The notes under the pieces are model-generated. The model did no database searches and was not told the DNA's origin. It was given only the letters and a program-made list of their open reading frames with translations. This document shows positions 9,251 through 64,000 of a DNA stretch of 64,000 bases, in pieces. This stretch comes from Pseudomonadota bacterium (GTDB taxonomy: Bacteria; Pseudomonadota; Gammaproteobacteria; Steroidobacterales; JBCBZW01). Within the stretch, counting starts at the first letter, position 1; each line of letters starts with the position of its first letter. Both the position numbers and the translations under genes were made by a program. The stretch covers positions 1-64,000 of the forward strand of contig JBCBZW010000015.1 in assembly GCA_039815145.1 (NCBI GenBank), in the 5' to 3' direction.

Positions 9251-11515
9251 ATGCGGCACCCCGTTCTCCGCGCCCCCCTGGCCGCAACCCTACTGGCCTG
9301 TGCGACCTACAGCTACGGACAAAGCCCGGACCTCGAGGAGGTCATCGTCACGGGCACGAAATCGGATAAGACGCTGCAGGAGACGTCGATCTCCGTAGAG
9401 CTTTACGACGAAACCCGAATCGACCGCAACGTAGCATTCAGCCTCGAAGACCTCTACGCACGCACGCCGAACGTCTCCTCCTTCGCTGGCGGCAGCGCCG
9501 GGGACATTTCCATCCGCGGCGTCGGCCGCAACGGCGTTGGTGGCGCGGGCACGGGCGTCACCTCCAACATCTATGTCGACGGCTCGCCCCTCAGCTTCGT
9601 TGGCACGGCCGGCATCAACAGCCTCTGGGACATCGCGTCGGTGGAGATCCTGCGCGGCCCGCAATCCACGCTGCAGGGGCGCAACTCCCTCGCTGGCGCC
9701 GTCGTCGTGAACACCAAGGACCCGACCTACGACTGGGAGTACGCCGCCCGCCTGCGCTACGGCAACCTGAACGAGCGCCAGTTCTCCGGTGCCATCTCCG
9801 GCCCCCTGATCGACAACCAGCTGGCCTTCCGCCTGACCGCGGACTTCCAAGGCATCGACGGCGAGCCGGACAATTTCTTCACCGGCGAGCCGGCCCAGAT
9901 TCGCGAGGGCCTAAGCTTGCGCGGCAAGCTGCTCATCGAGCCGAACGCGCTCTCCGGCCTGCGCGTCGAGCTGATCACCGACTACATCGAGACGGACAAC
10001 GGCGACTTCGCCAACTTCGGCATCCCCTTCCCCGCCGACGATCCCCAGTTCGATGACTTCGACTTCGCGGACGAAGACAGCTTCACCGCCCCGGATGTCT
10101 CCACCCGGGAGGCCCTACGCTTCGTCGGTGACATCCGCTACGAGATCAACAACACCTTCGACATCGTGGCGATCACCACCTACGAGGACTCGACCAGCGA
10201 GGGGACCTTTGGCGATCCCGCGGCACCTGGTCAGTTCCCCAACGGCACCGATAGCTCGAACATGCAGTCCAACGAGATCTTCTCCCAGGAGCTGCGCCTG
10301 AACTTCAGCGCCGGCAAGTTCTCAGGTTGGGTCGGCGCCTACTACTACGACGATACGCTCGAGTCTGAAACGCTCTCGAGCCTGCTGGTCGCGAACGCAG
10401 CGTTCCCGGCTCCGGTCGATCCCCCGGATTCGATCGGCATTCTGACCCTGACCAACAACTCCGCGACAACCAACTTCGCCGCCTTTGCTCAGCTCGCCTA
10501 CGACGCGAATGAGCGGTGGTCCTTCGAGGTCGGCGCGCGCTACGACGATGAGGACTTCGAGACCACGGGCTTCCTCGTGCGCGGCCGCGCCGAGCCCGAG
10601 ACCTGCACCGTCTTCATCCCGGACCCGATTCCCTGCGTGGCCCTGCTGCCGCCGCCCAACCTCGATCCGCTCCAGGAGGCTAGCTTCAGCGCCTTCTTGC
10701 CGCGCGTGGGGGTGACGTACAACATCGACGATTTGCGCTCCCTGTCCTTTGGCGTGCAGCGCGGCTACCGCGCGGGCGGCGCCTTCCTGCGCGTCGCCCC
10801 TGACGAAACAGAGCTCGGCAGCTTCGACGCCGAGTTTCTCACCAACTACGAGCTCGCCCTGCGCGCCGAGTGGTTCAACCGGCGCCTGACCACCAACGTC
10901 AACCTGTTCTACGCCGACTGGGAAGACCAGCAGCTCACCATACCGGGCCCGTCTAACACCCCGCTGGACACGCTCACGGTGAACGCCGGGAGGTCTGAGA
11001 TCTACGGCTTCGAGATCGCGGCCTTCGGCACGATCACCGACCGCATCGACGGGTTTGCCACCATCGGCTACCTGAACACCGAGTTCACAGACTTCCCCTT
11101 CGCCATCTCGCCCCCGGCCGCAGCGGGCAACCCCTTCGAGAACCTCGCCGGCAACGAATTCCCCCTCGCCCCGGACTGGCAGATCTCGGCAGGTTTGAGC
11201 GCGGACATCACCTCTCGCGTGTTCACGGACGTCAACGTCAACTACACCGCCGGCCAGTTCTCCGACCTCACCAATCTACCGCTCAACGAAGTGGACGGCA
11301 CGGTGCTGATGAACGCGCGCCTCGGCTATCGGGCGGATCGCATCGAGGTGTTCGGCTACGTCGACAACCTGCTCGATCAGCGCCGCATCACCAGCAACAA
11401 CAGCGCGAGCGTCGACACGGGCACGGGTAACGAGCAGCTGTTTTTCGTCGGCACATCGGTGGTGAACATCAATCGGCCGCGTCGCTTTGGCATCGCGGCC
11501 AGCTTCCGCTTCTAG
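9251..11515 (+). CDS. TonB-dependent outer-membrane receptor
   Basis: 754 residues. Signal peptide of about 23 residues, TonB box LEEVIVTGTK, a plug domain ending near the VEILRGPQSTLQGRNSLAG motif, then a 22-strand-type barrel closing with the C-terminal strand RRFGIAASFRF and a terminal phenylalanine. It lacks an STN domain. The plug (IDRNVAFSLEDLYARTPNV) differs from the four related TBDRs further right, so it belongs to another subfamily. Substrate unknown. ATG 9251 follows AAGGAACACCAG. A strong hairpin at 11531-11556 lies just after the stop. Confidence 0.93.
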   Translation: MRHPVLRAPLAATLLACATYSYGQSPDLEEVIVTGTKSDKTLQETSISVELYDETRIDRNVAFSLEDLYARTPNVSSFAGGSAGDISIRGVGRNGVGGAGTGVTSNIYVDGSPLSFVGTAGINSLWDIASVEILRGPQSTLQGRNSLAGAVVVNTKDPTYDWEYAARLRYGNLNERQFSGAISGPLIDNQLAFRLTADFQGIDGEPDNFFTGEPAQIREGLSLRGKLLIEPNALSGLRVELITDYIETDNGDFANFGIPFPADDPQFDDFDFADEDSFTAPDVSTREALRFVGDIRYEINNTFDIVAITTYEDSTSEGTFGDPAAPGQFPNGTDSSNMQSNEIFSQELRLNFSAGKFSGWVGAYYYDDTLESETLSSLLVANAAFPAPVDPPDSIGILTLTNNSATTNFAAFAQLAYDANERWSFEVGARYDDEDFETTGFLVRGRAEPETCTVFIPDPIPCVALLPPPNLDPLQEASFSAFLPRVGVTYNIDDLRSLSFGVQRGYRAGGAFLRVAPDETELGSFDAEFLTNYELALRAEWFNRRLTTNVNLFYADWEDQQLTIPGPSNTPLDTLTVNAGRSEIYGFEIAAFGTITDRIDGFATIGYLNTEFTDFPFAISPPAAAGNPFENLAGNEFPLAPDWQISAGLSADITSRVFTDVNVNYTAGQFSDLTNLPLNEVDGTVLMNARLGYRADRIEVFGYVDNLLDQRRITSNNSASVDTGTGNEQLFFVGTSVVNINRPRRFGIAASFRF

Positions 11516-51671: not shown

Positions 51672-51814
51672 TATACTGTAGGGATTCCAAGGAATCGCCG
51701 CAAGCGCGCCTCCTGCCAACGGTAAAGCGGGGCGAATCTGCACGTCCGTCCCTCGCGCCATGGCGTCCGCCGCGGTGACTCGAAGACCCTGTCCATCAAG
51801 GAGTGATGCTACCC

Positions 51815-54256
51815 ATGGCGACCCCCCGTTTGTCCACGGCAACTCCCCTGCTCGCGGCGTTCGTCGACCTCACGATGACCGCATGTGGAGGCGGCGGAGG
51901 CGGTGCAGGCGCACCGCCCGCGCCACCGGCAGGCAACACGGGCCCCACCATCGCCGGCCAACCGCCGACCCAGACCGAGGAGGCCGTGTTCTTCAGCTTT
52001 ACCCCCACCGCCACCGATGCCGACGGTGATGCGCTGACGTTTACCGTCGAGAACGCGCCGCCTTGGGCCCAGTTCGACACCAGCGACGGCACGCTTTCGG
52101 GCGCCCCATCGCTCGACGATCAGGGCACCTACGCCTCGATCACGATCAGCGTGAGCGACGGCGAAGACGACGCCACCCTGCCCGCCTTCACGGTGCAGGT
52201 GATCGATACGCTGGTCGTCACGCTCGCGGGCGTGGCCACCGATGATCCCCTCGCGGGCGCCACCGTCACCGCCACGGTCGGCAACGCGACGTTCACCGCC
52301 ACCAGCGACGCCAGTGGCGCCTACTCACTCCCCATTCGTGCGCCGGCTGAAGGGCCCACCGCCCTGATCCCCATCACCCTGACGGCGCGCGGGGCCGGGG
52401 CGCAGTCTCAGGTGGAACTCATCGCGCAGCTCGCCAGCGTGGCGCAGCTGAAGCTGCTCGCCGACGCGAGTGAAGGCTCGGTCACGCTCTCCCAAGCGCC
52501 TCGGTTGGCCGTGTCTCACCTGAGCACCGCGCGCTTCCTGCTCGCCGAGGACGCCCTGGCGGATGGCGATGCGAGCGACTTTGACAACATCGAAGCGGCC
52601 GAGCAGAGCATCCCCACCCAACGATTGCTCGAGGTGGCCGGACTCATTCAACTCATCAACGACGAAGGCCTCCTACCCATCGCAGGAGACCAAACGTCCC
52701 TCTCGCTCCTGCGATCGACCGACGTCGCCACGGAGCGCAACGGGGCCCGCCTGTATCGTCTCCTGCAGGAGAATGCCCTCGCGGATGCCGACGGTGAGTT
52801 GATCGACGACCTGCGCACCCGAGTGGACGCGGCGATCACCAGTACGCTTGCCGACCCGCTCCTCGCGATCTCCGTCGCGGCAGATGAGTGGGTGGGCGAG
52901 AGCCTCTGGGTGAACGCGACGCGCGTGAGCAGCGTCGGCGCTCGCGGCGAGCACTACGAGCTGGCGCAGGACGGCACGGGCCGCTGGCACGAGGACCTGG
53001 ACTCCCTGTTCGCCGTGCTTCCCGAAGGTGATCTCGCGCCCTTGCGCCAACGCCGACTGACCTGGCGTGTTGAAGCAAATGGGTCGCTGCGCACCGAGTA
53101 TCCGGACGCGGATCTCGAAGTAGCGTTCTCCGAGGACATCGGCAACGTCGCCGAATTCGGCTTCCCGCAAGACGTCGTCGAGTTCCTCTCCGGCGACTTC
53201 GACCCGCCGCTGCCGACACGCATCACCTTCTTCGCGCGTATCAACGCTGAGACCGTGGAGGTCGTGTCGCGCACGGGCAATCGCCTCGCGGTGAGGCGTA
53301 CGCAGGAGTTCAGCTACGAGATCGATGAGTTCCTCACGGAGATCGGCTTCCCGGGCCCCTTACCCCGCGCGCCCATCACGGTGGTCGAAACGCTCCAAGT
53401 GCTGCTGCCAGGCGCTGCGACCATCGAACCCTTTCCCGCCCTTGCTGGCGAGAGCTGGGTGCTGCCGCTGATCTATACCCCAGTCGTGCCCAGGCTCAAT
53501 CAGGCCGACCCGGCCCTGGCGGTGGATCTGATCGCCCTGGAAGAGGATGGCACTACCGCCGTGGGGCTGTACGGCGCCCCTAGCCATAGTTGGCAGGTGA
53601 ACGCGGCGGGCGCCCTGGAGCTGAGCCTGGACGAACGTACCTATCAATACCGCTTGGTGAAGCGCGGCCGCTACTTCGACCTCGTGGTGCTGAGCATCTT
53701 CGACGGCGCCGAGCTCAGCCGTCGCGTGGTGGTCAGGGCAGCCCGTGCCGAGTCGATCCGCACATGGCCACCGGAAGAGCTGGTGGCGACCCAGCCAGCC
53801 TATTGGCAGGACGGCCTGCAGCTGCTGAACGCCGACCAGTACGGTCTGGACGGCCTGCTTTTGGCCGATCAGGTGGACGGGTTCCTGCTTGGCTCGGCTG
53901 CCGCCGGTCGCTTTGGCCTCGTCGCCAGTGCTGTCCCCGAGTGCTTCGAGTTCGCCTTCCCCTGCTTCACCCTCGACGACGGCTGGCTTTACGGCGTGGC
54001 GGAGGGCCGCCTGGCTTTCGTCGATACCACCGCGTTCAGCATTCGAGAGAACGCCTGGGAACTGGTGCGCTACGACGCGCAAAACGATGTGGCCACGGTG
54101 ATCGAGTACGCGGTGACCGACTTCGATGGCGAGGGACCGGTGGAGTTCAGCAGCTACCCCCGCCTGAACACGCTGGAGCGTGGTGATTTGTCCACCTTCG
54201 CTGAGGCCTACGATCGCACCATCGCCCTCGGCGGGCTGAACTTCGACGGCGGCTGA
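51815..54256 (+). CDS. Putative exported protein with Ig-like domain
   Basis: About 813 residues. A short hydrophobic N-terminus with a poor lipobox (TMTACGGGG) is followed by a glycine/proline linker, an Ig/cadherin-like domain (TPTATDADGDALTFTVENAPPW to SVSDGEDD), and a carboxypeptidase-regulatory-like unit (VTLAGVATDDPLAGATVTATVG). The remaining roughly 600 residues are unassigned. ATG 51815 is chosen over GTG 51803 and ATG 51806, which lie too close to AAGGAG. It is probably cell-envelope attached. It precedes the PEP-CTERM cluster. Confidence 0.7.
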   Translation: MATPRLSTATPLLAAFVDLTMTACGGGGGGAGAPPAPPAGNTGPTIAGQPPTQTEEAVFFSFTPTATDADGDALTFTVENAPPWAQFDTSDGTLSGAPSLDDQGTYASITISVSDGEDDATLPAFTVQVIDTLVVTLAGVATDDPLAGATVTATVGNATFTATSDASGAYSLPIRAPAEGPTALIPITLTARGAGAQSQVELIAQLASVAQLKLLADASEGSVTLSQAPRLAVSHLSTARFLLAEDALADGDASDFDNIEAAEQSIPTQRLLEVAGLIQLINDEGLLPIAGDQTSLSLLRSTDVATERNGARLYRLLQENALADADGELIDDLRTRVDAAITSTLADPLLAISVAADEWVGESLWVNATRVSSVGARGEHYELAQDGTGRWHEDLDSLFAVLPEGDLAPLRQRRLTWRVEANGSLRTEYPDADLEVAFSEDIGNVAEFGFPQDVVEFLSGDFDPPLPTRITFFARINAETVEVVSRTGNRLAVRRTQEFSYEIDEFLTEIGFPGPLPRAPITVVETLQVLLPGAATIEPFPALAGESWVLPLIYTPVVPRLNQADPALAVDLIALEEDGTTAVGLYGAPSHSWQVNAAGALELSLDERTYQYRLVKRGRYFDLVVLSIFDGAELSRRVVVRAARAESIRTWPPEELVATQPAYWQDGLQLLNADQYGLDGLLLADQVDGFLLGSAAAGRFGLVASAVPECFEFAFPCFTLDDGWLYGVAEGRLAFVDTTAFSIRENAWELVRYDAQNDVATVIEYAVTDFDGEGPVEFSSYPRLNTLERGDLSTFAEAYDRTIALGGLNFDGG

Positions 54257-54522: not shown

Positions 54523-55248
54523 ATGAAGAATCTATCCGCCGCTATTGCCGCCACCCTGCTGGTGGTCTCCGTGCCCGCACTCGCGGACTTCCGCAACGGC
54601 CCCAACCCCTACGAAGACGGCTTCGGGTTCGACGAGCCTGATGAGGCGGGCGCTGCTACCTGGGGCGGCTGGAGCCGCGGCGATGCCGGCACGATCCACG
54701 TGGAGTTCGACAGCTTCGCGGAAACCGAATTCGGCAGCCGCACATCCAACCCCGACGTGGCGGAGTCCGGCGCAGATGCATCCATCTCCTGGAACCAGAA
54801 CACCTTCGTGACCGGTTCCCAGAACCTGTACTCATTCAGTGTCGCACCGGATTTCGACCTCACCCTGACGCCGGACATGGCCCTCACCGATCCCGTCAGC
54901 GTGGCCCTGCAGATCGAGACCTGGGGCGTCCAGCTCGACCCCAACAGCGTGGTGCTGAACGGGATAGCCCCTGAGCTGAGCGCCGTGACCTACCAGGATC
55001 CCGCGTACGACAGCCCCTTCGGCATAGTGTTGCTGGAGCATCTGCTGTTCACCTGGACCTTCGATTCGCTGAGCGACATCGTCTTCGACTTCACCGCTAT
55101 CGGCAGCAGCCTGTCCCTAACGCAGGTCGCCATCGACATCGGTCCTGGCTCCCCCGCCGTGGTGCCTGTGCCGGCGGCCGCCTGGCTCCTCGGCTCCGGC
55201 TTGCTTGGCCTCGGCGCAGTTCGCCGTCGCCGCCGCGCAGCCGCCTAA
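54523..55248 (+). CDS. PEP-CTERM-type surface protein
   Basis: 241 residues. A signal peptide (LSAAIAATLLVVSVPALA) leads a beta-rich domain of about 180 residues, then the sorting tail VPVPAAAWLLGSGLLGLGAVRRRRR: the VP-x-PA motif, a membrane helix and an arginine cluster. Proteins with this tail are processed by exosortase and attached to the cell surface or exopolysaccharide. It is a paralogue of 56302-57075 (shared FVTxSxNLYSF, LQIxTW, SVxLNG patterns). Function unknown; the position suggests heme or iron capture. AGGGAG precedes ATG 54523. Confidence 0.85.
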   Translation: MKNLSAAIAATLLVVSVPALADFRNGPNPYEDGFGFDEPDEAGAATWGGWSRGDAGTIHVEFDSFAETEFGSRTSNPDVAESGADASISWNQNTFVTGSQNLYSFSVAPDFDLTLTPDMALTDPVSVALQIETWGVQLDPNSVVLNGIAPELSAVTYQDPAYDSPFGIVLLEHLLFTWTFDSLSDIVFDFTAIGSSLSLTQVAIDIGPGSPAVVPVPAAAWLLGSGLLGLGAVRRRRRAAA

Positions 55249-55325: not shown

Positions 55326-56297
55326 ATGTTTGCTGTGGCCAATCGACGACATCCGCTCCTTCGCTACCTAGCCATCTCGTTCGCCTGCGCGAGCGCGGTG
55401 AGCGTGCAGCGCGCCGACGCGATCTCAATCGTCTTCGACTACGCCTACGATACGCGCGGCTTCTTCACCGACGAGGTGTCCGGCGAGCCGATCGAAGAAC
55501 GCCGTGCCGTGCTCGACCAGGCCGCCAGCTTCTACGCCGGATTCCTGGATCAGCTCGCACTCATCGCGCCCCAGAGCGGCGACAGCTGGTCCGTCTCCTT
55601 CGGTCACCCCAGCCTCGACGGCGGCTCCATCACCATCACCGATGAGACCATCGCCGCGGATTCCCTCCGCGTCTTCGTGGGCGGCTCGCCGTCCGCACCA
55701 GGCGTGCTGGGCTTTGCGGATAATGGCTTCAACCTGATGGCGACGGGCTCTGATGACTTCGTCTCGAGCGTGGAGAATCGCGGCCAGGACCCGGTTGTCG
55801 ACTTCGCGCCCTGGGGCGGTCGGATCTGGTTCAACGCCTCCGCCAACTGGTACTTCGGCGCGGATGAGGCGGGACTGCAGGAAGGGCAGAACGACTTCCT
55901 GACCACGGCCATCCACGAGCTCGCGCACATCCTCGGCTTCGGCTCCGCGCCCACCTGGAACGACAACGTGGACGCGGACGGATTCTTCGTGGGCCTCGCC
56001 TCTCTCGACGCCTTCGGCGCACCGGTGCCTCTCGACCAGTTCGAGGCGCATTGGGCTGAGGGTGTGATGAGCGATGTGCGCGGCGTGCCGCAGGAAACCC
56101 TGATGGATCCGAGCACACCGGCCGGCACGCGCCAGCTCCTGACCACCCTCGACTACGCGGGACTCGCGGACATCGGCTGGCAACCCGCCGCCGTACCGCT
56201 TCCCTCACCCCTGATTCTCTTGGCAAGCGCCCTAGGTGTCGCGCTCACGACGCGTCGCCGCCACCCCCTGCCGATACCCCATGCTTCTGGAGTCTGA
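55326..56297 (+). CDS. VPLP-CTERM zinc metalloprotease
   Basis: 323 residues. A signal peptide is followed by a protease domain with the zinc site AIHELAHILGFGSAP (HExxHxxGF, metzincin-like) and a later DPSTPAG segment. The C-terminus is a VPLP-CTERM-like sorting tail: VPLPSPLILLASALGVALTTRRRH. Predicted surface-anchored zinc endopeptidase. It lies between two paralogous PEP-CTERM protein genes, within a heme/iron locus. Digestion of heme-containing proteins is a hypothesis. ATG 55326; the ribosome site is not strong. Confidence 0.85.
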   Translation: MFAVANRRHPLLRYLAISFACASAVSVQRADAISIVFDYAYDTRGFFTDEVSGEPIEERRAVLDQAASFYAGFLDQLALIAPQSGDSWSVSFGHPSLDGGSITITDETIAADSLRVFVGGSPSAPGVLGFADNGFNLMATGSDDFVSSVENRGQDPVVDFAPWGGRIWFNASANWYFGADEAGLQEGQNDFLTTAIHELAHILGFGSAPTWNDNVDADGFFVGLASLDAFGAPVPLDQFEAHWAEGVMSDVRGVPQETLMDPSTPAGTRQLLTTLDYAGLADIGWQPAAVPLPSPLILLASALGVALTTRRRHPLPIPHASGV

Positions 56298-56301
56298 GAT
56301 C

Positions 56302-57075
56302 ATGACGTACCGCCACCTGCTGATCGGCTCACTGCTCACCACCCTCGCCCTCTCCACCGCCCACGGCGCGAGCGTCGCCCCCACCGCGTGGGATCGCGGC
56401 CAGGAGAATAGCGCGTACTTGTCGTGGGACGCCTTCGACGGCTCGCTCAACACCACGCCCAGCGAGGGTGCTACGAACGTCAATTCTGCGGCACTAACGG
56501 AACAGCTAGGCCAGGCCTTCGTGACCTCGAGCGGCAACCTCTACAGCTTCTCCTCGCCTCAGTCCTACACCCTGACGGTCACGACGACGTCCGAAGGCCC
56601 CTCGCCGATCGCCCAGGACCTGCAGGTTCAGTTGCAGATCGGTACCTGGAGCTTCCAGGCCGACCACGACAGCGTCACCTTGAACGGCCGTGGTGCGGAT
56701 ATGATCACCGAGCTCTCCGCGGGCCAGCAGACGCACCCAGTCTTCGGCACCTTCACCCAGTACGAGTACCTCTACACCTGGACCACCTCGGCCAGCAGCC
56801 TGTACGTGTTCGACTGGGACCTGCCCTCGACCAGCACATCCCTCGACCTGGTCGTGCTCGATATGTTCGCCGCCGGTGAACTGGACGGCCTGCTCGCCCT
56901 GCCGTTCCTGCCGATTCTTCCGAGCCTGCCCGGCAGCGACGTCTTCGACGGCTCCCAGCGCTACCCGGGTGACTTCCCCGCCGCCGTGCCCGTGCCGGCC
57001 GCCGTGTGGCTGTTCGGTGCCGCGCTCCTCTCGCTCGCTGGCGTGCGGCGTCGGTCCGTCGCGCTCGCCGCTTAA
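56302..57075 (+). CDS. PEP-CTERM-type surface protein
   Basis: 257 residues from ATG 56302 (GGAG upstream); the open frame extends further upstream but overlaps the protease gene. Signal peptide LLIGSLLTTLALSTAHG, a beta-rich domain related to that of 54523-55248, and a sorting tail VPVPAAVWLFGAALLSLAGVRRRS. It lies 25 nt before the TBDR gene at 57100, so both are probably co-transcribed. Predicted exosortase substrate on the cell surface. Confidence 0.83.
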   Translation: MTYRHLLIGSLLTTLALSTAHGASVAPTAWDRGQENSAYLSWDAFDGSLNTTPSEGATNVNSAALTEQLGQAFVTSSGNLYSFSSPQSYTLTVTTTSEGPSPIAQDLQVQLQIGTWSFQADHDSVTLNGRGADMITELSAGQQTHPVFGTFTQYEYLYTWTTSASSLYVFDWDLPSTSTSLDLVVLDMFAAGELDGLLALPFLPILPSLPGSDVFDGSQRYPGDFPAAVPVPAAVWLFGAALLSLAGVRRRSVALAA

Positions 57076-57099: not shown

Positions 57100-59766
57100 G
57101 TGACCGATCGGCTGTATCGCCTGGGGCTCGGCCTGTTGGCGCTCGTGTGTGCCAACTGGGTGGCTCCCGCATCGGCGCAGGCGTCGGCTGAGGCTTCCCA
57201 AGCCTCCGGCGATGGTGCCCAGGGCGGCGTCGTCGAGGAAGTGCTGGTCACCGGCCAGCAACTCGCGGGCCCCCGCGTCGACCTCAAGAGCACCACCACC
57301 ACCTTCGATCTGGAGGCCATTCGCGTCCTCCAACCAGGCTCCATCTACGACATCCTCGAGACGGTGCCTGGCGTCGAGCTCTCGGGCGGCCCACGCGCCA
57401 ACGGCATCTCCGTCAACATCCGCGGTTTCTCGGACAACGAAGACGTGCTCACCATCGTCGACGGCGCCGTCAAGAACTTTGAGAAGTACCGCTTCGGCGC
57501 CGTCTCCCTCGAACCCGAGATGCTGCGCGAACTCACCGTCTCCCGCGGCCCGGCCAGCGCCATCCAGGGCAGCGGCGCGATCGGGGGTGTCATCGAGATG
57601 GAAACCAAGGACGCGCGCGACTTCCTCGACGACGGTCAGCGCATCGGCGGCTTCGCTAAGCTCGGCTACGCAGACAACAACGATGAGCTGCTCACGATCG
57701 GCAGCATCTACGGCCGCCCCACGGACAGCCTCGATCTGCTGCTGAGCTACACCCGGCGCGACGCTAGCGACCTGGAACTCTCGACCGGCGACACCCTGCC
57801 CTTCTCGGCCTCGAGCCCGGAAGCGCTGCTCGCCAAGACTGAGTGGACCGGCCAGATCGCCTCCGTCGGCCTCTCCTACACGCGCACCTCCACCGAGGGG
57901 CGCGAGCTCTTCGACACGGCGGCCTTCAACAACGGCGTGAACGGTCAGGTGCTGCGCGAGACCGTGGACGACACGCTCGCCACCTACATCGACATCGACC
58001 CGGCCAGCGCCCTGATCAACACGACGATCTCCGTGGCCTACACGGACACGCGGGTGAACGAACAGGGTATCGATGCGAGCGACAGTCTCACCAACCGCAT
58101 CTGGGACTACGAGTACGACATCTGGTCCACGCGCCTGCACAACACGGCGGACTTCGCCCTCCCCGGCACGGCCGGCCTCACCGTGCAGACGGGCATCCAG
58201 GCGATCCAGGAAGAGCGCACCACGGACATCACGGGCATCGACGGCGAACCCACCGATTCGGTGTTGAGCCAACCCTCAGGTCGCACCCTCAACTGGGGCG
58301 CCTACCTGCAGGGCGAACTCACCTACGGCGGCTTTACGGCGACGGCCGGCCATCGCTGGGACAACAACTCGACGGAAGTGCTCGAGCAAGAGGCGATCGA
58401 ACTGCTCGCCGTGAGCGGCACAGCGCCGAAGATCGATCAGGACGCGGGCCTGTTCAACTACCGCCTGGAGTACGCCTTCGATCGCGTCCCCGTACGCCTG
58501 TTTCACAGCTACGTCGAAGCGGCTCGCTACCCGAAGATCGACGAGTACTTCACACAAGGTACCTTCAGTCTGTGCGTGAGGGACTCCAGCGACGCCGAAC
58601 GCCTGGCCACCTCCCTAGCGGCTGACCAGCGCTCCACCCAGGAAACCATCGACGCGGCCACCGCCCTCTCCCTCGCGGAAGTCGAGTCCTTCGCCGCGGA
58701 GCAGATTGCCGAACGCGATTCACTCATCCAGGCGGCCGAAGCCCAGCTGGCGCTGTTCATCGAACAAGCCAATGCCCTGAACGAAGCCGATCCCGTCGGC
58801 TACCCCGAGGCGCAGCGCGATGCGGATATCGCCACGGCTCGGGGGCAGACCGACTCGTTCATCAACGCCGCTACGCTCACGGCGGAACAGAACATCACCT
58901 TCTTCACCGATCAGATCAACGCCGGCCTGGAGACCGACATCGCTTCCTCCCAGGCGCGCCTGGCCGGGATCTTCGCCGACGTCGGCCTCGAGGACCCGAA
59001 CGTCGACCTCGACGCCCTCGACATCCCCACCCGCACGACCCTGCCCGAGCCCTTCCAAACGCTCCAGGTGTGCGGGGAGCTATTCCAGCCGGAGCTCGCC
59101 ACGAACCGCGAGTGGGGCATCGCCTACGACAAATCCGGCCTCTTGCGCGCCGACGACACCCTGCGCCTGAAGTTCACCTATTTCCGCACGGAGGTCGACC
59201 AGGTGCTGGAGTCGCTGAACAGCAACCCCCTGGACCCAACCAGCCAACCCGGTGAGGAAGACACCTGGGGCTACGAAGTGGAGAGCACCTACGTCTTCGG
59301 TGGCTACCGCTTCGACCTGACCTACAACCACAGCGAAGGCGAGACCCGGCGCTTCCGCATCGTCAACAATCCCGAGGGCACCAACGCGCTGAACGACACG
59401 CAGTACGCCTTCATCACCGACGATCGTCTCGACCTGCCGGCTGATCAGCTCGCGCTCACGGCGCGCTGGATCAGCAAGTCGCTGCGCTGGGAACTCGGCT
59501 TCCGCGCGACCCTCCAGTTCAGCCGTGAGGCGCTGCAGCTGGTGGACGATCAGGCTGTGCGCACCACACAGCCGTCCGTGAGCGAGCTGGACATCTACGC
59601 CACTTGGCGTCCGCGCGAGCGTACGGATATTCGCTTCACGGCCAACAACGTCACTAACGCTGAATTTCTAGTGGTGGGGGGGATCACCGACGATCGTGAT
59701 CTGGTGCTCGGCAACTTCAATGTCGGGCGTCTGATGCGGTTGTCGATAACTCAGTACTTCCAATAG
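57100..59766 (+). CDS. TonB-dependent receptor (heme-type locus) with helical insertion
   Basis: 888 residues. GTG 57100 is chosen because AAGGAGG ends 7 nt upstream; GTG 57094 is too close. Signal peptide ending near SAQA, TonB box VEEVLVTGQQ, a plug with ISVNIRGFSDNEDVLTIVDG and LRELTVSRGPASAIQG, and a barrel ending RLMRLSITQYFQ. About residues 492-658 form an extra, Ala/Glu/Gln-rich, strongly helical block bracketed by cysteines (SLCVRD and LQVCGEL). It sits between a YPKIDEYF segment and a PELATNREWGIAYD segment, the place of a long extracellular loop. Opposite the hmuTUV genes, so heme is the likely ligand. Confidence 0.9.
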   Translation: MTDRLYRLGLGLLALVCANWVAPASAQASAEASQASGDGAQGGVVEEVLVTGQQLAGPRVDLKSTTTTFDLEAIRVLQPGSIYDILETVPGVELSGGPRANGISVNIRGFSDNEDVLTIVDGAVKNFEKYRFGAVSLEPEMLRELTVSRGPASAIQGSGAIGGVIEMETKDARDFLDDGQRIGGFAKLGYADNNDELLTIGSIYGRPTDSLDLLLSYTRRDASDLELSTGDTLPFSASSPEALLAKTEWTGQIASVGLSYTRTSTEGRELFDTAAFNNGVNGQVLRETVDDTLATYIDIDPASALINTTISVAYTDTRVNEQGIDASDSLTNRIWDYEYDIWSTRLHNTADFALPGTAGLTVQTGIQAIQEERTTDITGIDGEPTDSVLSQPSGRTLNWGAYLQGELTYGGFTATAGHRWDNNSTEVLEQEAIELLAVSGTAPKIDQDAGLFNYRLEYAFDRVPVRLFHSYVEAARYPKIDEYFTQGTFSLCVRDSSDAERLATSLAADQRSTQETIDAATALSLAEVESFAAEQIAERDSLIQAAEAQLALFIEQANALNEADPVGYPEAQRDADIATARGQTDSFINAATLTAEQNITFFTDQINAGLETDIASSQARLAGIFADVGLEDPNVDLDALDIPTRTTLPEPFQTLQVCGELFQPELATNREWGIAYDKSGLLRADDTLRLKFTYFRTEVDQVLESLNSNPLDPTSQPGEEDTWGYEVESTYVFGGYRFDLTYNHSEGETRRFRIVNNPEGTNALNDTQYAFITDDRLDLPADQLALTARWISKSLRWELGFRATLQFSREALQLVDDQAVRTTQPSVSELDIYATWRPRERTDIRFTANNVTNAEFLVVGGITDDRDLVLGNFNVGRLMRLSITQYFQ

Positions 59767-59835: not shown

Positions 59836-60591
59836 ATGCAAATCAATAGAGAACGAATGGGCGTACTAGCCGCCGTATGCCTGTCCTCGCTGGTGGGAAC
59901 CGGCGCTCACGCCGCCACCTCCACCTTCGCGCCCGACGAAGACGTCATGACCTCAGCGTTCTTCTTCGGACCGAACTACGTCCGCGGCTACGTCGGCGAC
60001 GTGCGACCCGCCTTCCGCGTGGGCACGGACAACGCCTTCGGCGCGGGACCTGAGACCATCTACCTCGATTTCAGCAGCGTGGACCTCGCGTCCTTCGACA
60101 GCTCAGCGGTGCGCGCCACCCTGACCCTACGCAGCGTGGATGGCGGCTTCGGCGCCAACGCCGGGCCCGGCAACCCCTTCACGGTCTCCGCCCACGGGGT
60201 CGACGCCGATCCCTTCGCACGGATCGAAGACGACACCAACCCGGGCGGGGACATCTTCTGGTTGGACTTCTTCAACGACAACATCCTGCCGGCCGACGCG
60301 GCGGCCCTGAGCGTGGTGGATTGCATCGACTGCGACATCACCTTCGACGTCACCGCGCTGATCTCCTCGTGGATCGATGCCGGCGACGCACTGCAGTTCA
60401 TCGCCCTCACGGGGACCAACGACACGTCCGGCAACGACTTCCTTCACGGCTTCCGCAACAACTCGGACACCCTGTCGGATGAGGGCTTCACCTTCCTGAC
60501 CGTGAGCGCCGTGCCCGTGCCGGCCGCGGTGTGGCTGATGCTATGCGCCCTGGGGATCATGGTGCCCGCCGGTCGCCGCCAGCGCAGCTAG
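59836..60591 (+). CDS. PEP-CTERM-type surface protein
   Basis: 251 residues. Signal peptide (VLAAVCLSSLVGTGAHA), then a beta-rich domain (ETIYLDFSSVDLASFDSSAVRATLTL, CDITFDVTALISSWID) resembling carbohydrate-binding or DNRLRE-like modules, and a tail VPVPAAVWLMLCALGIMVPAGRRQRS typical of PEP-CTERM sorting. Two cysteines (VDCIDCD) are adjacent mid-domain. It follows the TBDR by 69 nt and is closed by the strong hairpin at 60630-60672. Confidence 0.82.
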   Translation: MQINRERMGVLAAVCLSSLVGTGAHAATSTFAPDEDVMTSAFFFGPNYVRGYVGDVRPAFRVGTDNAFGAGPETIYLDFSSVDLASFDSSAVRATLTLRSVDGGFGANAGPGNPFTVSAHGVDADPFARIEDDTNPGGDIFWLDFFNDNILPADAAALSVVDCIDCDITFDVTALISSWIDAGDALQFIALTGTNDTSGNDFLHGFRNNSDTLSDEGFTFLTVSAVPVPAAVWLMLCALGIMVPAGRRQRS

Positions 60592-60608: not shown

Positions 60609-60627
60609 CACAGCGCTGATCGCTGTG
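60609..60627. repeat. Small hairpin before the main terminator
   Basis: CACAGCG (60609-60615) pairs perfectly with CGCTGTG (60621-60627) around a 5-nt loop, just after the stop of 59836-60591 and 3 nt before the larger hairpin. Confidence 0.5.
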
Positions 60628-60629
60628 CT

Positions 60630-60672
60630 ACCTGAGCGGCTCGCAAGCCTCGCGCTTGCGGGCCGCTCAGGT
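60630..60672. terminator. Strong hairpin terminator after the PEP-CTERM locus
   Basis: 19-bp stem (60630-60648 with 60654-60672, one G-T wobble) and a 5-nt loop CTCGC, followed by TTTGC. As the stem is nearly perfect it can act in both directions, for the rightward PEP-CTERM unit and for the leftward hmu-type unit. Confidence 0.7.
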
Positions 60673-60940
60673 TTGCAACGTGCATGTTGCCCCGCTTGCT
60701 CACCTGCCAGCACACCCTGCTCGGTACCCGGTGTGCGATGATGGCAACGACATCCGGAGGGGCCCGCGTCCAATGTCAGGGACGATCGTGGGTTGCGTCT
60801 CACGGAGAATCTCCACTCGCGCTGTAACCCAGAAGTTGAACGCCCCCCGAGACCGTTTGGTGAAGCTGGAGCTCCATCGACACAGACGCTGGACGTCTGG
60901 CCTGCGAGGGACCGCGCGCGCACCCGAAGGGGGTCGGGAC
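60673..60940. other. Gene-free stretch between the hairpin and a minus-strand ORF
   Basis: I see no supported gene here. Open frames on both strands read as low-complexity Arg/Pro/Ser sequence, which is typical of GC-rich non-coding DNA. Confidence 0.5.
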
Positions 60941-61300: not shown

Positions 61301-61603
61301 TCAGAGCACCGCTTCGAAGGTCTCGAGATCAGGATGGGCGAGGTAAGTACCTTTCGGCGCAGACTGCTGAGCATGCGCCTTGCGGAAAGCCTCCGACTCC
61401 GTCCAGGCCAGGAACGCTTCCTTCGATTCCCATACGGAGTGCGAGGCGTAGAGCACATGGTCCTCGTGCTGCGGCCCCTTGAGCAGGGAGAAGGCCTTGA
61501 ATCCCGGCACTTCGGAGAGGTAAGAGTCTCGCTCGCGCCACACCTGTTCGAAGCCCTCCTCGAAGCCCGGTGCGATCTTGAATCGGTTCATCGCGATAAA
61601 CAT
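61301..61603 (-). CDS. Heme-degrading monooxygenase (ABM/IsdG-like)
   Basis: 100 residues of the antibiotic-biosynthesis-monooxygenase fold. MFIAMNRFKIAPGFEEGFEQVW, VPGFKAFSLLKGP, HVLYASHSVWESKEAFLAWTESEAFRKAH and YLAHPDLETFEAV match the small heme-degrading group (HmoA/IsdG-type). The residues usual for heme-oxygenase activity (early Asn, later Trp and His) are present. Likely releases iron from imported heme in the cytoplasm. It lies 29 nt downstream of the HmuV-like ATPase gene on the same strand. Confidence 0.85.
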   Translation of the reverse strand: MFIAMNRFKIAPGFEEGFEQVWRERDSYLSEVPGFKAFSLLKGPQHEDHVLYASHSVWESKEAFLAWTESEAFRKAHAQQSAPKGTYLAHPDLETFEAVL

Positions 61604-61632: not shown

Positions 61633-62430
61633 TCAGGTAGTCACCAGGAGGCGTTCGTCGGCCTCCAAACGAGTGACATGAACGGGCACCTCGTAGACGC
61701 GGCTCAGCAGGGCAGGCTCCAGCACCTGCGCCGGCGTCCCCACACGCTGCAGGCGGCCCGCCGCCAACAGCGCGATGCGATCCGCAAAGCGGGCCGCAAG
61801 ATTCAAATCGTGCACCACGGCGACCACGCCCAGACGATGCTCCCGGCAGAGGCGAGCGACGGTGCTCATCAGCAGGAGTTCGTGAGCCAGATCCAAGCTG
61901 GCGGTAGGTTCATCCAACAGCAGGTACCGCGCGTCTCGGGCATCGTCGCCAGCACCGATACTCGGCCAGACCTGCATGAGCGCCCTGGCGAACTGCACAC
62001 GTTGCTGCTCACCGCCCGACAGGCTGTTGAACAGGCGGCCCAGCAGGACACTCAGATCGCACTGCTCGATCACCCACGCCTGGGCCTTTGCCTGCACCTC
62101 ATCGCCCAACCAGCGATTCGGTGCCCACCCCATGCGCAGCACCTCCTCCACCGTGAAGTCGAAGAGTATTCCCGACGCCTGGGTCATGACCGCGCGTCGG
62201 CTCGCCTGGCGGTCGAGGGGCATGCCGGCGAGGGTCTCGCCGTCGAGACACACCGTGCCGGTCCCGGGCGTGAGCTCCCCCGCCAGCAGACGCAGAAAGG
62301 TGGACTTGCCCGCCCCGTTTGGCCCCAGAAGCGCCACCAACTCCCCCGGCGATACGGCCAGGGAGACGTCGCAGAGCAATGCCCGCTCCCGAACCGCGTA
62401 GCTCACGCCTTGGGCTTCGAGCAGGCTCAT
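61633..62430 (-). CDS. hmuV: Heme ABC transporter ATP-binding protein
   Basis: 265 residues. Walker A LLGPNGAGKSTFLRLL, signature LSGGEQQRVQFARAL, Walker B YLLLDEPTASLD and switch histidine VVAVVHDLNLAARFAD. This fits the BtuD/FhuC/HmuV group; the heme assignment comes from the hmuT/hmuU-like and heme monooxygenase neighbours. ATG 62430 overlaps the permease stop by 4 nt, so translation is coupled. Confidence 0.9.
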   Translation of the reverse strand: MSLLEAQGVSYAVRERALLCDVSLAVSPGELVALLGPNGAGKSTFLRLLAGELTPGTGTVCLDGETLAGMPLDRQASRRAVMTQASGILFDFTVEEVLRMGWAPNRWLGDEVQAKAQAWVIEQCDLSVLLGRLFNSLSGGEQQRVQFARALMQVWPSIGAGDDARDARYLLLDEPTASLDLAHELLLMSTVARLCREHRLGVVAVVHDLNLAARFADRIALLAAGRLQRVGTPAQVLEPALLSRVYEVPVHVTRLEADERLLVTT

Positions 62431-63503
62431 CGCATCCTCACGCGGGCGATCAACCAGAGAAAGAACGGGCCGCCGATCGCACTGGTCACCAACCCCACGG
62501 GAAGCTCCGCCGGCACCACGAGGGTGCGCGCGAGGAGGTCCGCCATCACCATCATCAACGCCCCTAGCAGCGCCGACGCGGGCAGGACGTACCGATGGGA
62601 GGGCCCGCCGAGCAAGCGCACCAGGTGCGGCACGACCAACCCCAGAAAGCTGATGATTCCCGAGACAGCAACGCCGGCGCCGACCACAGCGGCGCTGGCG
62701 AGGATAGCGATGCGCGTGAGGTGCCGGGTGTCCACGCCCAGATGACGAGCACCCTCCTCGCCGAGCTGCAGCAGATCGAAGCGATCACCGAGGCGCAGCA
62801 GTACCGCCGCGCCCAGCGAGATCACCAGGAGCGACGGGATGATCGTGGGCCAGGTCGCCCGACCGAAGCTCCCCATCATCCAGAACACGAGCGTGCGCAG
62901 CTGGGTGTCATCGCTCAAGTATTCGAAGGCACCGACGCCTACCACCGCCAGCGCGTTGATAGCGATACCCACCAGGATCATGGTGACGGTGTTGAAGTTG
63001 CCGAAATAGCGCGAGAACAGGTAGAGAAAGGCGGTGACCAGCACGCCGCCGGTGATCGCCGAGGCGGGAACGGCGTAGTGGGCGAACCACAGCGGCCAGG
63101 CGATGGCCTCCCCGAGCACGATCATCGCCACCGCGCCGAGGGCGGCACCGCTGGACACGCCGATCAGTTGGGGGTCCGCCAAGGGATTACGGAACAGCCC
63201 CTGAAGCACGGCGCCAGCGAGCCCCAAGGCGGCACCGACGAACGCGGCAAGCAAGACGCGGGGGCTGCGAATCTCGATGAACACTGTGCGCTCGAGCAAC
63301 GCCTTCGCATCGCCCTCGGCGCCAAGCAGGGCACTCCAGGTGATCGGTACGGCACCGGTTTTCAACGCCACGACGACGCCGATCAGGAGTCCCGTGAGCA
63401 GCAGGCCCAGCACCCGACGCTGGCGCCCGCGGCGGCGACGCTCGTCATCCATCGGGAGCGTCGGTGTCGACTCACCCGCTAGGGCATCGGTAGCACTCAC
63501 CAC
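62427..63503 (-). CDS. hmuU: Heme/iron ABC transporter permease (FecCD family)
   Basis: 358 residues with about nine to ten membrane helices and FecCD landmarks: RSPRVLLAAFVGAALGLAGAVLQGLFRNPLADPQLIGVSSGAALGA, DRFDLLQLGEEGARHLGVD, and VSGIISFLGLVVPHLVRLLGG. Inner-membrane channel for heme or a similar iron chelate. It lies 12 nt after the end of the binding-protein gene and overlaps hmuV. Confidence 0.92.
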   Translation of the reverse strand: MVSATDALAGESTPTLPMDDERRRRGRQRRVLGLLLTGLLIGVVVALKTGAVPITWSALLGAEGDAKALLERTVFIEIRSPRVLLAAFVGAALGLAGAVLQGLFRNPLADPQLIGVSSGAALGAVAMIVLGEAIAWPLWFAHYAVPASAITGGVLVTAFLYLFSRYFGNFNTVTMILVGIAINALAVVGVGAFEYLSDDTQLRTLVFWMMGSFGRATWPTIIPSLLVISLGAAVLLRLGDRFDLLQLGEEGARHLGVDTRHLTRIAILASAAVVGAGVAVSGIISFLGLVVPHLVRLLGGPSHRYVLPASALLGALMMVMADLLARTLVVPAELPVGLVTSAIGGPFFLWLIARVRMR

Positions 63504-63515
63504 GATGGCGCGGCG

Positions 63516-64000
63516 TCAGGGCGCGCGGGCGGCGTCAGCACTCGCCACGGCATCGAGGGAGATCGCGAGTTCGCGTGCCGCCTCCAACGTGCGTGGGCCG
63601 AAGCCGAGCATCGCCATACCGTCCATATCGATCACCCGGCGGTGGCGTCCCGCGTCGGTGAGTCGCAGGGCGGGATGGGCGAGCAGTGCGTCGAGGCCGC
63701 CGGCATCGTTCACCCCGCGCGTGGGCACGACGAATATCGATGGGTTGATAGACACCATCATCTCCATCGAGACCGGTCGCCACCCTCGCATATCGGCGAG
63801 CGCGTTGGTTGCCCCGGCCATCGCCAGCAGACCATCGCCGGAGGTCTCAGCCCCCGCTCCCAGCGGTGCGCCATCGCGCAGCCCCAACAGGACCGCCACC
63901 TTTGGCGGCGTATCGCGATCGGGTAGATCAGCGAGCGCGTTGATCAGGGGCTGGATGCGCTCGGAGAGCAAGCGATCGCCCGCCTCAGGCACCCCCAACA
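63516..64000 (-). CDS. hmuT: Heme ABC transporter substrate-binding protein, C-terminal part
   Basis: The last 160 or so residues; the frame runs off the right edge. Contents fit HmuT/BtuF-type helical-backbone binding proteins: an AVLLGLRDGAPLGAGAETSGDGLLAMAGATNALADMRGW segment, NPSIFVVPTRGVNDAGGLDALLAHPALRLTDAGRHRRV and IDMDGMAMLGFGPRTLEAAREL. Periplasmic delivery of heme to HmuUV. First in the visible minus-strand hmuTUV-monooxygenase unit; its promoter lies beyond the window. Confidence 0.85.
   Translation of the reverse strand, partial: LGVPEAGDRLLSERIQPLINALADLPDRDTPPKVAVLLGLRDGAPLGAGAETSGDGLLAMAGATNALADMRGWRPVSMEMMVSINPSIFVVPTRGVNDAGGLDALLAHPALRLTDAGRHRRVIDMDGMAMLGFGPRTLEAARELAISLDAVASADAARAP

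Follow-up and report, generated by a model that had tools for sequence, protein, structure and literature searches.

What do PEP-CTERM proteins do beside a heme-type TonB-dependent receptor (TBDR), and does a long cysteine-bracketed block inside the receptor belong to the answer? Environmental bacteria encode PEP-CTERM proteins in large numbers, yet a job is known for few of them. The window (the whole stretch of gammaproteobacterial DNA analysed here, 64,000 nucleotides in length) holds such an arrangement, as listed in Table 1. The receptor gene more likely starts with the GTG at position 57100, found 7 nt 3′ of an AAGGAGG sequence and 24 nt beyond the end of the second partner gene.

Table 1. 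Features of the receptor locus and its neighbours, in window coordinates.
Feature	Coordinates	Strand	Basis or remark
Partner protein 1, VPLPA/PEP-CTERM, partner family A6	54523..55248	+	TIGR03370 35.6 bits, above cut-off; A4 and A6 profile searches
PEP-CTERM-type metalloprotease (HELAH motif), between both partners	55326..56297	+	NF038122 1.9e-12, below cut-off
Partner protein 2, PEP-CTERM paralogue of partner 1	56302..57075	+	TIGR03370 25.4 bits, at cut-off; profile searches
Heme-type TBDR, 890 aa	57094..59766	+	Pfam Plug 6.1e-19; TIGR01785 275.6 bits; Foldseek
Plug domain, subfamily motif IRGFSDNEDV..NFEKYR	57280..57591	+	N115 at the position of the ChuA plug His
Extracellular loop 7 insertion (predicted position), C494 to C660	58573..59073	+	165 residues between the cysteines
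Predicted arm helix 1, residues 498-565	58585..58788	+	AF2 DSSP
Predicted arm helix 2, residues 572-629	58807..58980	+	AF2 DSSP
Further VPVPAA-CTERM protein, outside partner family A6	59836..60591	+	TIGR03370 17.9 bits, below cut-off
HmuQ heme-degrading protein	61301..61603	-	NF053649 147.2 bits, above cut-off
HmuV-type heme ABC transporter ATPase	61633..62430	-	NF010068 283 bits, above cut-off
HmuU-type permease	62427..63503	-	FecCD 5.7e-88
HmuT-type periplasmic binding protein, runs past the window end	63516..63998	-	Peripla_BP_2 2.6e-11; full 308 aa in L024

The initial annotation had reported a block rich in Ala, Glu, Gln and Asp between two cysteines of the receptor, and this was found to be exact: the codons of C494 (58573-58575) and C660 (59071-59073) stand at its two ends, and the residues 492 and 658 given there are the same cysteines counted from the GTG at 57100. 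The mature receptor contains no other cysteine, as the remaining one, C19, sits in the signal peptide. The block consists of 19% Ala (against 7.5% in the rest of the mature receptor), 10% Asp, 8.5% Glu and 8% Gln, is rich in Thr, and has a net charge of -22, while His, Lys, Met, Trp and inner Cys are all absent. Is it a real part of the protein? The sister species G001 (locus L010) has a 165-residue block with 96% identity to that of the window, and the dN/dS of the block between the two is 0.046, near the 0.035 and 0.032 of the flanking barrel parts (dS of about 0.42). Thus, the block is a genuine and constrained part of the receptor, under purifying selection like the barrel, and an assembly or frame artefact is ruled out. 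No known domain was found for it in Pfam or PHROGs and no convincing match in PDB; the best PDB match, ATP synthase subunit b (E 0.27), was put down to composition. In an insertion-specific search of 369 class-level genomes, the window's own genome was the sole match.

An AlphaFold2 model of the receptor, made from a seven-row alignment (mean pLDDT 71.6, pTM 0.69), has a plug and a 22-strand-type TBDR barrel, in agreement with the Pfam Plug match and with Foldseek, where ChuA, HasR, ShuA and PhuR were among the best matches. By strand count in the model, the block is predicted to lie between barrel strands 13 and 14, that is, in extracellular loop 7; on the TIGR01785 profile, its place is between positions 451 and 467. 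This agrees with its earlier placement between FRAP-like and NPxL-like segments. The outward-pointing helical block proposed at that time was likewise borne out in the model of the receptor alone, which predicts two long helices joined at ADPVGYP. The ten-residue mean pLDDT is mostly 65-83 in the central helical region, and residues 629-657 are of low confidence. The alignment is extremely shallow across the insertion (essentially one sequence), so the predicted pair of helices carries moderate weight. The helical periodicity of large hydrophobic residues is marginal, with 3.64-3.67 residues per turn and p of about 0.05 for each helix; a regular heptad coiled coil is not supported in the window block. 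The signal is stronger in the insertions of L016 and L018, and the L016 insertion was modelled as a single 52-residue helix behind a proline-rich stretch. An origin of the arm from duplication of one helix was also considered, and the evidence was weak (self-similarity of the two helices, p 0.04).

Is the cysteine pair common among related receptors? Relatives were gathered by scanning genomes with an alignment of three rows and by whole-genome searches, giving about 20 distinct receptors, several of which are metagenome-assembled. They have a common plug signature, typically IRGF[SG]DNEDV..NFEKYR, which shows greater variation among the G1000-family copies. In all 20 subfamily receptors whose loop is complete, the pair is retained in the form C-xn-C[GAD]xx[YF], with n being 5, 6, 8, 13, 14, 15, 47, 53, 74, 99 or 165; the cysteine bracket noticed in the single receptor is therefore conserved throughout the subfamily. 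TBDRs scoring no more than 412 bits with the subfamily profile lack the C-xn-C pair, a clean separation that is partly built in because the profile was made from Cys-bearing members. L039 and L040 have another cysteine pair, differently placed in the same loop. The presence of two cysteines in the mature protein, together with the conservation of the pair, strongly suggests a C494-C660 disulfide.

In a tree calculated with the insertion left out, the subfamily is set apart (SH-aLRT 99), the receptors with short loops of 5-15 residues group in a single clade, and long loops are found in gammaproteobacterial branches. Since the pair is kept at spacings that range from 5 to 165, the cysteine-bracketed loop is ancestral, and the helical block is a gammaproteobacterial expansion inside it. 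The insertions of L016, L018 and L019 are alike, and that of the window resembles them only weakly; the residual likeness between the window and L016 insertions (p 0.002) points to a common origin within the Gammaproteobacteria. Two tandem subfamily receptors occur in several G1000-family genomes (L027, L043, L046, L051-L055), with a cysteine spacing of 8 in one and 6 in the other, and partner genes lie around both.

It was also proposed at the outset that the receptor is tied to the co-encoded PEP-CTERM proteins. The comparison of loci upheld this: the partner family adjoins the receptor in 24 of 24 subfamily loci fetched (including same-region duplicates, e.g., L001/window, L010/L023, L014/L018 and L021/L045) and in none of 28 control TBDR loci (eight of which are other TBDRs of the window's genome; the flanks of all controls are about 1.5 kb, and most control genomes lack the partner family). 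Among 398 phylum-level genomes, the partner family is present in two, and these are also the two with subfamily receptors (A2 score of at least 585), with a chance probability of 1.3e-5. In the window's own 6-Mb genome, the partner domain, and not merely the sorting tail, matches only the two proteins beginning at 54523 and 56302. By this linkage of partner gene and receptor gene, the pair has the layout of a two-part receptor. In contrast, the suggested tie between the insertion as such and the PEP-CTERM partners was not supported. L017, L021, L027, L043 and L045-L055, which have only 5-15 residues between the cysteines, carry the same partner family next door; thus, the link belongs to the receptor subfamily and not to the arm, the arm is dispensable for the partnership, and the insertion is ruled out as a marker of PEP-CTERM linkage.

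The partner tails that were inspected have V-P-x-P or a variant of it, a hydrophobic stretch, and mostly basic residues, and the window's genome has two EpsH exosortase genes, so that both the sorting tail and the exosortase expected for PEP-CTERM substrates are present. The partner family has no NCBIfam match and no convincing Pfam match. Its invariant residues include a Tyr (in GN[IL]YS) and a Trp, and no invariant His. Fold searches with the partner domain gave weak matches only, to titin and Ig-like chains, and detected no similarity to a solved hemophore. Among the papers searched, none linked PEP-CTERM proteins to heme TBDRs or hemophores, which is not proof of novelty. In G001, the metalloprotease gene is reduced to a C-terminal remnant (L023:6540-6650), which still reads VPLTAPLVLFANALGVAGATRRR, a PEP-CTERM-like tail. 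The VPVPAA-CTERM protein downstream of the receptor has a weak DNRLRE match and is conserved at the same place in G001 (L023:10188-10940).

The neighbours found across the subfamily suggest a two-part uptake system so far undescribed. I would give an even chance to a heme-type system made of the receptor and an exosortase-sorted partner, with the loop-7 arm docking a protein. The receptor would be the outer-membrane channel, and the PEP-CTERM partners, held at the surface or in the matrix, would capture or retain the ligand and pass it on to the receptor. Loop 7, its base probably closed by a disulfide throughout the subfamily, would act as a contact platform. In the gammaproteobacterial branch, this loop has grown a helical arm, which in the window lineage became the 165-residue block with two predicted helices of about 60 residues and a short turn. 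This arm most likely reaches over the barrel mouth and docks either a PEP-CTERM partner or a heme-bearing ligand protein, and the disulfide would keep it from disturbing the barrel strands. I hold somewhat short of even the wider proposal that this is a new class, in which PEP-CTERM proteins serve a heme-type TonB receptor lacking the usual His ligands, and in which a disulfide-closed loop 7, in some lineages a helical arm of about 90 Å (a length taken from the helix residues), takes the ligand over from the partner. Surface or exported partners encoded with a heme TBDR are known from HpuA-HpuB (PMC4703857) and HphA-HphR (PMC8560813); those partners are a lipoprotein or Slam-secreted, whereas the window partners have a signal peptide and a PEP-CTERM sorting tail.

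May the arm work without the partners? It may directly capture an outside protein ligand, such as a hemoprotein or the heme carrier of another microbe. Helical arms on TBDR loops are proven for protein ligands in TbpA with transferrin and TdfJ with S100A7 (PMC9426574), the length of the insertion differs among lineages while the partner family is constant, and the block is strongly acidic. However, any such ligand is hypothetical, and the inserted sequences are just weakly alike; I regard direct capture as rather unlikely. The helix finger of TbpA and TdfJ/ZnuD, which also sits on an extracellular TBDR loop and touches the protein ligand (PMC9426574), belongs to loop 3 and is short (15 residues were deleted in the TdfJ study), in contrast to the two predicted helices of about 60 residues and the cysteine bracket in the window receptor. 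Since the insertion is in loop 7 by strand count, a loop-3 helix of the TbpA/TdfJ type was rejected.

Is heme the ligand? The HmuQ, HmuV, HmuU and HmuT genes adjoin the operon on the opposite strand, and L016, L019 and the Methylovorus locus L021 are flanked by heme-type ABC genes along with genes for HemS/ChuX or DUF2470. Four loci of different genera thus have genes for a heme ABC transporter or for heme handling beside them, and a bacterioferritin gene stands beside L017. As in HemR, ChuA, ShuA and HmuR (TIGR01785), there are a plug and a barrel, a loop 7 between boxes that resemble FRAP and NPxL in degenerate form, and, at four loci, heme ABC genes nearby. The window receptor differs from these in its sub-cut-off score (275.6 against 316.85 bits), a plug Asn in place of His, the missing loop-7 His, the cysteine-closed inserted loop and the PEP-CTERM neighbours. 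The initial annotation described this loop as the one that contacts heme or hemophore in HasR-type receptors; heme contact holds for the HemR and ChuA type, where the heme ligands are His128/His461 and His-86/His-420, respectively (PMC6449446, PMC12241658). In the window receptor, the residue aligned with the ChuA plug His is N115; it is invariant in A2 and varies in other members, with no His there in any plug motif listed. No His was found in loop 7 of the window receptor or in 16 of the 20 subfamily loops. Because the plug and loop-7 His are both missing, heme contact via the canonical residues is unexpected. The FRAP/NPNL boxes are degenerate, reading ARYP and QPEL in the window and FRPP or FRAP and xPE/xPQ in most relatives.

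These observations allow a further reading, in which the receptor imports another metal complex or cofactor and the nearby heme genes are incidental. Besides the loss of both canonical His residues, with DNED at the plug apex instead, and the sub-cut-off score, another receptor of the same genome, C214, passes the TIGR01785 cut-off, and no heme ABC genes were found within the 8 kb read downstream in G001. A PEP-CTERM metal carrier also exists for zinc, ZepA, whose authors suspect a receptor and whose gene neighbourhoods contain TBDT genes, an example of a PEP-CTERM exoprotein that works in metal uptake (PMC10957091). However, ZepA belongs to a zinc/Zur context and has predicted His zinc ligands, and partner family A6 has no invariant His. 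The heme genes at four loci of different genera and the fact that the nearest relatives in sequence and fold are heme receptors speak against a non-heme ligand, which I consider unlikely. Given N115, the missing loop-7 His, the score, C214 and the G001 locus, the receptor is best described as a divergent relative of heme receptors that may work like one, its membership in that family being unproven. With the textbook heme ligands absent, such a receptor would reveal another way of passing heme, or another ligand altogether.

The arm may also be a spacer, lid or shield, which raises ligand entry through an exosortase-associated polysaccharide layer or blocks phages or bacteriocins that use the receptor. 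The high content of Ala, Glu, Gln and Asp without a conserved motif, the lineage-variable length and the exosortase genes in the genome fit this idea; yet a simple spacer should be freer to change than a dN/dS of 0.046 indicates, and the idea seems distinctly improbable. A neutral expansion of this lineage with no function in its own right, as the Ala richness of the block and the weak self-similarity between the helices (p 0.04) might suggest, is scarcely credible with a dN/dS near that of the barrel at a dS of 0.42.

With one unnamed PEP-CTERM family strictly paired with one receptor subfamily, nutrient handover at the cell surface becomes a function that can be tested directly, and deleting the loop-7 arm would be an obvious way of separating docking from transport. 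Around the operon, a gene for an 817-aa protein with a He_PIG Ig-like domain lies upstream (51803-54256, + strand) and is conserved in G001 (L023:2930-5383). A GC-rich inverted repeat, CCTGAGCGGC...GCCGCTCAGG, which could end the operon, follows position 60591 at 60626-60675; a terminator scan did not report it. Several other large TBDR-like ORFs are found in the window from 9251 to 31163, with TIGR01785 profile matches at 9332, 10340, 12193, 17792, 26507, 28118 and 30291.
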